Shown here in pieces: positions 6,953 to 34,570 of a stretch of 34,570 bases of DNA (the first letter of the stretch is position 1; each line of letters begins with the position of its first letter). This DNA comes from a bacterium. GTDB taxonomy: Bacteria; Zixibacteria; MSB-5A5; GN15; FEB-12. The notes below the pieces were generated by a model. It had not been told where the DNA came from. It saw nothing but the letters and a program-made list of their open reading frames with translations, and made no database searches. Made by a program: the position numbers and the translations under genes. The stretch spans positions 1-34,570 of the forward strand of contig JAUWIB010000049.1 of assembly GCA_030605565.1 (NCBI GenBank). Reading direction: 5' to 3'.

Positions 6953-6993
6953 AAGGATATCTTGCTGGGCGGGGGGTTGATCAAGTAGCCTTG

Positions 6994-7148
6994 AAAATGG
7001 GTTCGTTTTGGGTCCTTTCGTTGTTGCCAAACGGGATGGGTGGTGAAATGGGTTCGTTTCGGTGATAAATCACTTTTTCGCACTTCGTGCGGCCCTTTTT
7101 GTCACATTCCTATAGCTGGGTGAGCGGCGTGCAAATGGGTTCGTTTTG
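6994..7148. repeat. Three copies of the AAATGGGTTCGTTTTG motif
   Basis: Copies at 6995-7010 (exact), 7046-7059 (AAATGGGTTCGTTT, then CGG) and 7133-7148 (exact), with uneven spacing (51 and 87 bases between starts) and unrelated sequence between. A fourth copy sits at 34186-34200 in the other repeat island. Read on the - strand the core is CAAAACGAACCCATTT, which in one frame encodes K-T-N-P-F. No function recognised. Confidence 0.8.
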
Positions 7149-7246
7149 TCTGTTTTTATACTCGGATAATAGGATCGGTGGTGATGACGTGGCCGTAACG
7201 GTTTGGCGGTGACAAATGCGGCAGTCTGTTTGGTAATGGTATCCAT
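7070..7246 (-). other. Small open frame (58 codons), likely relic of a repeat-borne ORF
   Basis: ATG at 7246 on the - strand reads MDTITKQTAAFVTAKP and ends at 7070. Its first codons resemble those of the frame starting at 34308 in the other island (MTTSAKQIAAYRLLN), and the DNA between them and the GGGTTCGTTTTG motif is recognisably shared. I recall a family of small proteins beginning MTTxxKQxxANRxNA in several phyla; both frames could be decayed starts of such a gene. The composition (Arg, Lys, His rich) and lack of a good ribosome site argue against a working protein. Confidence 0.35.
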
Positions 7247-7416: not shown

Positions 7417-7611
7417 CCCAGGGCAAGGAGGCTGTCTCAAAAGTCGCTTTTTCTGTCGCGTAGCGGCGGGCCTTGTGTCCGCCGGCCACACGTGGCATTC
7501 ACTGGTGGGAGACAAGCCCCCACCCTACGCGGTGTTAGAATCTGTGCACATAAACAGTGGTGAGGACGATGCATTCACAACCGAGTTATGAGACAGCCTC
7601 CAAGCCCTGGG
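7417..7611 (+). mobile_element. MITE-like element, copy A
   Basis: Terminal inverted repeats GGAGGCTGTCTCA (7427-7439) and its complement (7589-7601) are perfect over 13 bases and extend outward to 23-base arms with two mismatches (CCCAGGGC at 7417, GCCCTGGG at 7604). The interior has no reading frame but nested pairing: CGCGTAG with CTACGCG, an inner GGCGGGCC/GTCCGCC hairpin and GGTGGG/CCCACC. An inverted copy about 12 bases shorter lies at 34409-34570. Terminal repeats, small size, no transposase and at least two copies fit a non-autonomous transposable element. Confidence 0.8.
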
Positions 7612-7664: not shown

Positions 7665-7684
7665 GGCAGACGAGGACGTCTGCC
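7665..7684. repeat. AGGA-loop hairpin 2
   Basis: Eight-base perfect arms GGCAGACG (7665-7672) and CGTCTGCC (7677-7684) around AGGA, with two further pairs possible across a bulged G. Read on the other strand the loop is TCCT, so it is the same apex as hairpin 1 with an unrelated stem. Confidence 0.7.
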
Positions 7685-32078: not shown

Positions 32079-33503
32079 GTGACTGAGCAGATGCCAAAGA
32101 AAGAGCGGATGAAAATTCCCCGGCAGACGATGCCGGAGCAGGAACCCGACGTACGCAACCACAATTTCAAAGAAGTCCCCCTGGGCCTTACCGAGGAACA
32201 GGCCGTCCTGGAGGCGAACCGTTGCATTGAGTGCAAGAAAGCGCCATGCATTCCCGGTTGTCCCGTTGAGGTCGACATCCCCGGGTTTATCCGCTTGGTC
32301 ATGGACAGAGACTACGCGGCGGCGGCGCGCAAGATCAAAGAGACCAACTCGCTTCCGGCCGTCTGTGGGCGGGTTTGTCCGCAGGAAGAACAGTGCGAGA
32401 TCGTCTGCACCCTGCACAAGAAATTCAAGCCGGTAGCTATCGGTTACCTTGAGCGTTTCGTCTCCGACTGGGAACGCGAGAATAATCTGGTCGTTCTGCC
32501 CGAGATCGCTCCGCCTACCGGGCGCAAGGTGGCCTGTGTCGGTTCCGGTCCGGCCGGTCTCACCGTTGCCGGTGATCTGGTCAAGCTCGGCCACGCTGTT
32601 ACTATCTTCGAGGCACTGCACAAACCGGGCGGCGTGCTGGTGTACGGCATCCCGGAATTTCGGCTGCCGAAACATATCGTGCAGGCCGAGTGTGACTTCC
32701 TCGCCGAGATGGGTGTGGAATTCCAAAACTCGACCGTCGTCGGAAAGATGGACACTATTGACGAATTGTTTGAGATGGGTTACGACGCCGTCTTCATAGG
32801 CACCGGCGCGGGGCTACCGAACTTCATGGGCATCCCCGGCGAGAACCTGATCGGCATCTACTCCGCCAACGAGTATCTGACGCGCTCCAATCTGATGCGC
32901 GCTTACGATTTTCCGAATAACGACACACCAATCATCATAGGCAAAAACGTGGCCGTGCTCGGCGGTGGTAACACCGCCATGGACGCCGTGCGCACGTCGC
33001 TGCGACTCGGCGCCGACAACGCCTACATTGTCTACCGTCGCAGTGAGGCGGAGATGCCGGCGCGCGCCGAGGAGATCCATCACGCCATGGACGAGGGAGT
33101 GCAATTCCACATGCTCACCACTCCGATCGAGTTCATCGGTGATGACGACAACAAGGTGAAAGCGATGGAGTGTCTGCGCATGGATCTCGGTGAGCCGGAT
33201 GCGTCCGGTCGCCGTCGCCCGGTGCCGATTGAAGGTTCCAATTTCATCATGGAGGTCGATCTTGTCGTTGTCGCCATCGGCAACTCCTCCAACCCGTTGA
33301 TTCCTCAGACCACGCCGGGTCTGGATACCAACAAATGGGGTAACATCACTGTCAATGACGATACGATGCTGACTTCGCGCAAAGGTGTCTATGCCGGTGG
33401 TGACATCGTGACCGGTGGCGCTACGGTGATTCTGGCGGCCGGCGCCGGCAAGAAAGCCGCCCGCGCCATCCACAAGTACCTCATGGAGGAAGTGGAGAAG
33501 TAG
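32079..33503 (+). CDS. NfnB-type NADPH-binding iron-sulfur flavoprotein (glutamate synthase small-subunit fold)
   Basis: A 474-residue protein with two [4Fe-4S] sites built from C49, C52, C57, C61 (RCIECKKAPCIPGCPVE) and C96, C100, C106, C110 (CGRVCPQEEQCEIVC), an FAD Rossmann motif VGSGPAGLTVAGDLVKLG (154-171), an NADPH Rossmann motif LGGGNTAMDAVRTSLRLG, and a C-terminal GVYAGGDIVTGGATVILAAG. GTG start at 32079 is six bases from GGAG (32069-32072). No large glutamate synthase subunit is adjacent; the partner is the NfnA-like gene, so an NfnAB or SudAB complex is the better reading than glutamate synthase. Cytoplasmic. Confidence 0.9.
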   Translation: MTEQMPKKERMKIPRQTMPEQEPDVRNHNFKEVPLGLTEEQAVLEANRCIECKKAPCIPGCPVEVDIPGFIRLVMDRDYAAAARKIKETNSLPAVCGRVCPQEEQCEIVCTLHKKFKPVAIGYLERFVSDWERENNLVVLPEIAPPTGRKVACVGSGPAGLTVAGDLVKLGHAVTIFEALHKPGGVLVYGIPEFRLPKHIVQAECDFLAEMGVEFQNSTVVGKMDTIDELFEMGYDAVFIGTGAGLPNFMGIPGENLIGIYSANEYLTRSNLMRAYDFPNNDTPIIIGKNVAVLGGGNTAMDAVRTSLRLGADNAYIVYRRSEAEMPARAEEIHHAMDEGVQFHMLTTPIEFIGDDDNKVKAMECLRMDLGEPDASGRRRPVPIEGSNFIMEVDLVVVAIGNSSNPLIPQTTPGLDTNKWGNITVNDDTMLTSRKGVYAGGDIVTGGATVILAAGAGKKAARAIHKYLMEEVEK

Positions 33504-33511
33504 CGTGCTCC

Positions 33512-33572
33512 GTGGGCGGTGTATGTCCACATGCGCCGCCATGCAACCCGGCTTGACCGAGCGCGGGGACGA
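33512..33572. repeat. Direct repeat copy 1 with TCCA-loop hairpin
   Basis: Bases 33512-33559 are identical over 48 bases to 34078-34125. Within them GGCGGTGTATG (33515-33525) pairs with CATGCGCCGCC (33530-33540) around TCCA, with two U-G pairs. The match resumes at 33560-33572 (AGCGCGGGGAC) with 34150 onward. It precedes the cysteine-rich gene. Confidence 0.9.
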
Positions 33573-33595
33573 CATTTGACAAAGGAAGAGAAACG

Positions 33596-34027
33596 ATGGT
33601 GAAGAAAACCGGCAAGAAGCGCAGTAGCACAAAACGCCGATGCGGTCTCTGTGGCAAGACCACCAATCTGACCAGGACCGATTGCTGCGGCAACTGGATT
33701 TGCGATGACGAGGACAAGTACAAAGCGTTCTCTTATGCTCGAAACAGTTGCTCCCGCAACCACCGTCGACTCACACTGTGTGCTTACCACCATATGGAAG
33801 AGCATGAAGGTCGGTGGCAGGATTGCGAACTTTGTCGTGATGGGTTTGAGACGGAAATGTACGTGTGGTATGGAACGAACGAATACAACTTTGAGAAGCT
33901 TGAGAACCCCCCGTCATTCGAACCTACCCGCTGTGCGGACTGTGGCAAGATTATCCACCTTGGCGCCGATGGCTACTCGATGCAGGGCGGCAAGTACTGG
34001 TGCGAAGCCTGTTCTCGATACACGTAG
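33596..34027 (+). CDS. Cysteine-rich zinc-binding protein of unknown function
   Basis: A 143-residue protein, basic at the N-terminus (VKKTGKKRSSTKRR), with many metal-type cysteines: C16-C19 (CGLC), C30-C31 (DCCGNWICDDED, also C36), C52, C62 with H65-H66 (LCAYHHMEEH), C77-C80 (CELC), C113-C116 (CADC) and C136-C139 (CEAC). The last two pairs form one rubredoxin-like ribbon. The block NLTRTDCCGNWICDDED is very distinctive and I believe it belongs to a conserved uncharacterised family, but I cannot name it. The start has GGAAGAG upstream. It sits alone between two copies of a 48-base repeat. Confidence 0.75.
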   Translation: MVKKTGKKRSSTKRRCGLCGKTTNLTRTDCCGNWICDDEDKYKAFSYARNSCSRNHRRLTLCAYHHMEEHEGRWQDCELCRDGFETEMYVWYGTNEYNFEKLENPPSFEPTRCADCGKIIHLGADGYSMQGGKYWCEACSRYT

Positions 34028-34050
34028 TCGCGTAGATCAGCGTTCTGAGA

Positions 34051-34071
34051 TCGAAACCCGTGTGGTTTCGA
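34051..34071. repeat. GTCGAAACC-type hairpin, third copy
   Basis: TCGAAACC (34051-34058) pairs with GGTTTCGA (34064-34071) around CGTGT. Same stem as at 6909 and 10920, with another loop, and again directly after a gene (stop at 34025-34027). Confidence 0.75.
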
Positions 34072-34077
34072 CAGCGT

Positions 34078-34162
34078 GTGGGCGGTGTATGTCCACATGC
34101 GCCGCCATGCAACCCGGCTTGACCGGGCGGCAGATGTGGATATCTGCCGAGCACGGGGAACG
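34078..34162. repeat. Direct repeat copy 2 with two hairpins
   Basis: Same 48 bases as at 33512, followed by a 24-base insertion (34126-34149) relative to copy 1. The insertion holds the arms CGGCAGATG (34128-34136) and TATCTGCCG (34141-34149) around TGGA. After it the match to copy 1 resumes (AGCACGGGGAA). Here the CCCGG/CCGGG stem around CTTGA is intact, while copy 1 has CCGAG. Confidence 0.85.
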
Positions 34163-34185
34163 CCCGGGCCACCCAGCGGCGTGGG

Positions 34186-34330
34186 AATGGGTTCGTTTTG
34201 TGGAATTTCATCTTCCATTAATAACATCGGTGGTGATTCCGTGGCCTGCATTAGTTGGAGGTGATTCAGGAGCCGGTAGGCGGCGATCTGTTTTGCGCTG
34301 GTGGTCATAGGGCTTGTCCTTCAATGATCA
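34186..34330. repeat. GGGTTCGTTTTG motif plus about 120 bases shared with 7133-7264
   Basis: AATGGGTTCGTTTTG at 34186-34200 is followed, exactly 25 bases later as at 7148, by ATCGGTGGTGAT (34226-34237; 7174-7185), then CGTGGCC, TTGG-GGTGA and TCCTT-A-TGA in the same order. The - strand frame starting at 34308 (MTTSAKQIAAYRLLN) lies in this block and parallels the one at 7246. Diverged copies of one element. Confidence 0.7.
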
Positions 34331-34408: not shown

Positions 34409-34570
34409 GAAACTGTCTCAAAACTCGGTCGTGAATGCATTGTCGTCACCACTGTTTGTGTGCTCAGATTCCAACACCGCGTAGGGTGGGGGCTTGTCTC
34501 CCACCTCGATTCCGGCGGACACAAGGCCCGCCGCTACGCGATAGAAAAAGCGGCTTTTGAGACTGCCTCT
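34409..34570 (-). mobile_element. MITE-like element, copy B (inverted, reaches window end)
   Basis: Inverted relative to copy A at 7417-7611. Its ends are GAAACTGTCTCA (34409-34420) and TGAGACTGCCTCT (34558-34570), diverged from copy A's GGAGGCTGTCTCA. The interior matches copy A except for about 12 missing bases near 34508; the pairing segments CGCGTAG, GGTGGG and GGCGGAC are kept. The last base of the window may cut its outer end. Confidence 0.8.

Follow-up and report, generated by a model that had tools for sequence, protein, structure and literature searches.

A gene for a cysteine-rich protein of 143 residues (33596–34027, plus strand) lies between two copies of a REPIN-like repeat in the stretch of DNA analysed here (henceforth the window: 34,570 nucleotides, which make up contig C116 in its entirety; the genome comprises 3.39 Mb in 152 contigs). 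With good confidence, the locus is read as follows. The two copies belong to an element built of two inverted REP palindromes with GTGG or GTGC heads, and a RAYT/TnpA-REP-like Y1 transposase would move them in trans. Copy 2 is the complete element and copy 1 its local sister, which, in the order of events that we infer, arose by duplication, a short-range hop or gene conversion and then most likely lost its right-hand hairpin, perhaps by slippage between CCG trinucleotides. The cysteine-rich gene would have been acquired by the lineage in a repeat-rich spacer and would in this way have come to lie between the copies.

Copy 1 (33512–33563, plus strand) and copy 2 (34078–34154, plus strand) start 566 bases apart and are identical at 51 of 52 bases (98%; 33512–33563 versus 34078–34129), of which the first 48 match exactly; alignment and open reading frame both confirmed the preliminary description of exact 48-base repeats around a 143-residue gene. 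Both copies begin with a GTG head (at 33512 in copy 1) and hairpin A (33515–33540 and 34081–34106, both plus strand), a REP palindrome whose loop reads TCCA on this strand and hence TGGA on the opposite one; in the pattern scan, copy 1 matched the A-type pattern with one mismatch. In copy 2, hairpin A and a spacer are followed by an inverted hairpin B (34128–34149, minus strand), past which the copy ends in GAGCAC at 34154, giving a head GTGC when read on the minus strand from 34154. Copy 1 consists of hairpin A and the spacer, with hairpin B missing, and has the form of a decayed doublet. The 24 additional bases of copy 2 (34126–34149, plus strand) fold as a hairpin with the loop TGGA, so a hairpin of the same family is indeed present in one copy only, as first described. 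Compared with shuffled sequences, copy 2 folded better (z −3.23) and copy 1 did not (z −0.78). Beyond the 24-base gap, the match between the copies resumes at 9 of 10 bases, a level reached in 173 of 20,000 shuffles (about 0.009) and 38 of 4772 real 30-mers of the window in an anchored test, which was adopted after an any-offset version had given 6007 of 20,000. The claim that copy 1 is matched on both sides of the additional hairpin thus holds for the near side and, since the far side comprises only 9 of 10 bases, is likely but less than certain for the other; if real, as is likely, the far-side match implies a deletion within copy 1, and a truncation of copy 1 is possible instead.

The repeats belong to a dispersed REPIN-like family and are not a private bracket of the gene. 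An 82-base query of copy 2 gave at least 45 matches in its own genome at an E-value of 0.001 (40 of 85 first-look candidates were scored). By pattern scan, 19 sites were found for hairpin A and, among the matches listed, 67 for hairpin B with zero or one mismatch; allowing up to three mismatches resulted in 75 forward and 77 reverse matches for hairpin B, in which most sites are counted twice due to the palindrome. Backwards control patterns for both hairpins yielded 0 sites. A side-by-side comparison of elements showed the usual complete form to be GTGGGCGGCGTATGTCCACATGCGCCGCC, a spacer, CGGCAGATGTGGACATCTGCCG, one base, and GCAC, i.e., two palindromes in inverted order, each headed by GTGG or GTGC when read from outside, and the same heads stand 5′ of the hairpins at the transposase flanks (see below). 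Fourteen elements, copy 2 among them, were read by eye as two inverted hairpins with a spacer, an architecture that copy 1 lacks for want of hairpin B. The script labelled 12 of these 14 as A plus B and called L010 and L021 A twice because its looser A pattern overlaps B; the printed sequence of both has B. A second case of a broken hairpin B was seen in element L013. Throughout the 61 genomes searched, the hairpin was present in 28, and the two-hairpin element is also the common form in sister species. According to the preliminary description, bracketing of the gene would be put down to chance if the repeat occurred widely without genes between; this is largely what was found, as the repeat is dispersed and mostly sits alone in this genome.

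Because the two-hairpin form is common both in the own genome and in sister species, the difference between the copies most likely reflects loss of hairpin B from copy 1. A gain of the hairpin by copy 2, as had been proposed, was rejected on the same grounds, the common element carrying both hairpins and copy 1 being the deficient one. The four best frames for the 24-base deletion are equally good and all run between two CCG trinucleotides, which suggests that slippage between these trinucleotides may have removed the hairpin.

A Y1 tyrosine transposase akin to the RAYT/TnpA-REP proteins presumably mobilises the elements in trans. The genome contains five Y1_Tnp matches, one of them with an internal stop. 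The transposase on contig C93 scored above the cut-off for Pfam Y1_Tnp (PF01797), its sole PDB match was TnpArep (4er8, E 0.00025), and its gene sits amid four copies of hairpin B. A search with this protein over 61 genomes yielded 20 loci, around which GTG plus a hairpin, with the head pointing outward, was sought within at most 180 bases. Such a hairpin was found on at least one flank at all 20 of these RAYT-like loci of the order and on both flanks at 14, compared to 1 with any flank and 0 with both among 90 control positions in the same loci and 4 and 0, respectively, among 523 positions in unrelated loci; with hairpin-B matches added, both flanks were occupied at 17 of the 20. At locus L093, repeats resembling hairpin A lie on either side of the transposase gene, and hairpins A and B therefore look like the REPs of related transposases. 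Presence of the hairpin was associated with that of a close RAYT at E 1e-30 (14 of 28 genomes with the hairpin versus 5 of the other 33, p 0.005) and at 1e-45 (12 of 28 versus 3 of 33, p 0.003), both uncorrected for kinship, and was not significantly so at 1e-5 (p 0.09) or 1e-20 (p 0.13) over the same 61 genomes. Within the genus, neither hairpin nor RAYT match was found in G002 and G004, and G003 (82% complete assembly) has hairpins and only a weak RAYT match. Regarding the other Y1 genes of the own genome, no GTG hairpin was found within 300 bases of L040, L042, and L043. A second Y1 transposase gene (L041:1465–1959) is flanked on one side by another kind of GTG hairpin, GCTGAGTCTTCAGACTCAGC; sequence resembling it occurs near hairpins in L032, and this type is perhaps a second REP family.

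At the orthologous site, G005 and G003, the two closest species, lack the cysteine-rich gene as well as both repeats, all of which therefore fall within a stretch that varies from species to species (33512–34182). In G005, in which the ortholog of the upstream gene is 97% identical in amino acids, similarity to the window extends into the first bases of copy 1 (GTGGGCGG), is interrupted by another hairpin and different sequence, and resumes at 34270; copy 1 thus has its left edge at or near the break relative to G005. G003 departs at 33493, at the end of the upstream gene, and matches again from 34183. A simple one-repeat scar was found in neither species, nor was a clean empty site found in the relatives compared at this or two other REPIN elements, where contigs break; one of these two other REPINs is retained at the same place in G005. 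In this genus, spacers are patchworks composed of many repeats. Downstream of the orthologs in G001 and G004, the cysteine-rich gene was not found by eye in the stretch inspected, and no common distal flank was seen there. A candidate anchor-gene ortholog in G006 (C260) was dropped as a paralog fragment (50% over 44 residues). In G005 (L072, near base 440, minus-strand reading), the different hairpin occupies exactly the position of copy 1 and is likewise preceded by TAGCGTGCTCC and GTGGGCGG, which would fit an exchange of REP types or two hits at the same site.

The gene between the copies had been described as an orphan, a view that had to be given up, as 109 relatives from many phyla were found in genome_contigs. 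Of these, 80 were kept, with 58–76% identity over most of the length, and their record names include Chloroflexi, Planctomycetota, Deltaproteobacteria, cyanobacteria, Acidobacteria, Nitrospirae, Asgard archaea (Lokiarchaeota, Sigynarchaeota), and others. No second copy was found in the own genome, and the gene was found neither in 131 other genomes of the phylum nor in 60 others of a smaller set. High identity across distant hosts together with this patchy distribution suggests horizontal transfer of the family. Three plasmid records matched the gene; a viral origin was considered and dropped, no relative having been found in viral_contigs or phages. Foreign composition was likewise rejected: GC3 (0.639 versus 0.667, sd 0.036) and codon-use score (0.071 versus 0.109, sd 0.038) fall short of the values for 26 window genes by roughly one standard deviation at most, and the composition of the gene is native-like.

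An alignment of the window protein with 37 of the 80 relatives (n = 38) contained 41 invariant columns, 13 of which are cysteine and 3 histidine, with C-x2-C pairs; these residues suggest zinc binding, and the protein probably binds zinc. It has no Pfam match and no fused domain, and NCBIfam and PHROGs gave only weak matches. The AlphaFold2 model (mean pLDDT 68.9, pTM 0.51) gave 0 Foldseek matches at E 0.001 and only weak ones resembling LIM or zinc-finger folds, as did a profile search of PDB sequences (best E 0.17). Five of six long-frame homologues scanned, with start codons chosen by script, have known domains (SEC-C, DUF1186, DUF6398, or DUF7309/DUF6930). The family thus touches SEC-C, DUF6398, and DUF7309 proteins, in that some homologues bear these domains beside the common region; it differs from them in that nothing in Pfam matches the cysteine-rich region itself, and in that the window protein lacks such a fused domain.

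If a common repeat had inserted twice independently, once on each side of the gene, the same neighbourhood would result without any link between the copies. The repeat is indeed common in the genome, and further hairpin pairs at close range, seen in the fetched loci, enclose genes or nothing. However, with 19 A-type sites, the expected number of pairs in the same orientation within 600 bases is only 0.03. Among 17 aligned elements (136 pairs), no other two are as similar as the window copies (98%; the next pair reaches 92%), which also share a variant, GTGGGCGGTG, found in none of the other A sites (19 in all). As the copies are the closest pair and share this variant, a local event linking them, i.e., duplication, short-range hop, or gene conversion, is likelier than two separate arrivals, and a chance neighbourhood is very improbable. 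Retention of the hairpins as transcript ends or RNA stabilisers, rather than as mobile elements, would agree with their positions, copy 1 directly after the gene at 32079–33503 and copy 2 after the cysteine-rich gene, and such roles of REPs are named in passages of PMC3733652. No T-run follows either copy, however, and dispersal and linkage to transposase flanks are traits of a mobile element; as a replacement for mobility this role is hardly credible, although the two views are compatible and do not exclude each other.

The preliminary description had also proposed that the gene could be moved or deleted as a cassette. In this case, the outer ends of the locus (GTG and hairpin A at 33512, hairpin B and GCAC at 34154) would act as one enlarged REPIN, which would allow the transposase to move the gene; alternatively, the copies could recombine and so delete it. 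In favour of this, the outer ends follow REPIN order, the copies are nearly identical, and gene and repeats fall in the segment that G005 and G003 lack, the left boundary of which is at copy 1; the absence of gene and repeats from the sister sites is thus the part of the proposal that stood. Homologues elsewhere argue against it: at the 74 testable loci (of 80; 6 were too near a contig end), flanking direct repeats scoring at least 25 were found at none and at least 18 at one (score 21; controls 0 of 152 at 18), leaving 73 of 74 without such repeats. The same gene was not found between the same repeats elsewhere in the own genome or in the 131 genomes of the phylum, and close hairpin pairs in the fetched loci enclose RAYT genes, other genes, or little. 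The lack of a second gene copy in the own genome and of a simple one-repeat scar in the sister species, as well as the mosaic spacers of the genus, also speak against a cassette, which we consider very improbable. The near-identity of the copies demonstrates a local event that links them, but does not extend to the gene travelling with them. More specifically, the outer REPs of two tandem REPINs might function together as a single long REPIN, with which a RAYT-type transposase could take along a passenger gene; the locus would then be such a cassette after loss of one inner hairpin. This has a slimmer chance still. To our knowledge, carrying genes is not the accepted role of REPINs, and no paper on REPINs carrying genes was found in the literature searched; a cassette, if real, would mean that REPINs transport genes. 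The position of the gene is taken here as acquisition in a repeat-rich spacer, with REPIN-driven carriage a small possibility.

Considered as a REPIN-like pair, the window system is a further REPIN/RAYT case, and the protein family between the copies is interesting but separate. REPINs are REP doublets (Bertels and Rainey 2011, PMC3116915), and BIMEs are named in PMC6006769; like both, the window family has two inverted REP palindromes and a spacer and appears to be dispersed between genes. Unlike the REPINs in the pertinent passages of PMC3116915, the window element has halves of two REP types (A and B) and GTGG/GTGC instead of GTAG heads, and a whole gene lies between its two copies. Those passages describe tandem, near-identical REPINs with flanks and unrepeated DNA between them in P. 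fluorescens SBW25, and interpret REP singlets of this strain as doublet remnants. RAYT/TnpA-REP transposases with flanking REPs appear as REPtrons in sections of PMC3733652 and PMC6006769, with GT[AG]G as the REP head, from which the GTGC head departs; as in these systems, Y1_Tnp proteins of the order are flanked head-out by GTG hairpins. The locus extends the known REPIN/RAYT systems by one that combines two REP types and occurs in several families of one bacterial order; a doublet and its decayed sister are visible here side by side. It also highlights an unnamed, strongly conserved cysteine-rich family that occurs in distant bacteria as well as in Asgard archaea, in a patchy pattern resembling that of transferred genes.

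Further repeats were seen in the window. An inverted repeat pair (7428–7596 and 34413–34569, 92–95% alike), the second arm of which ends the contig, has similar sequence in L025 and L015, i.e., it is another dispersed repeat, and the contig probably breaks within it. Another repeat (6992–7212 and 34175–34264, with AATGGGTTCGTTTTG near 34183) also occurs in L030 and L034, as well as in G003 downstream of the ortholog of the same gene. At 7665–7684, the exact hairpin GGCAGACGTCCTCGTCTGCC corresponds to a REP type that stands beside transposase genes in other genomes of the order.
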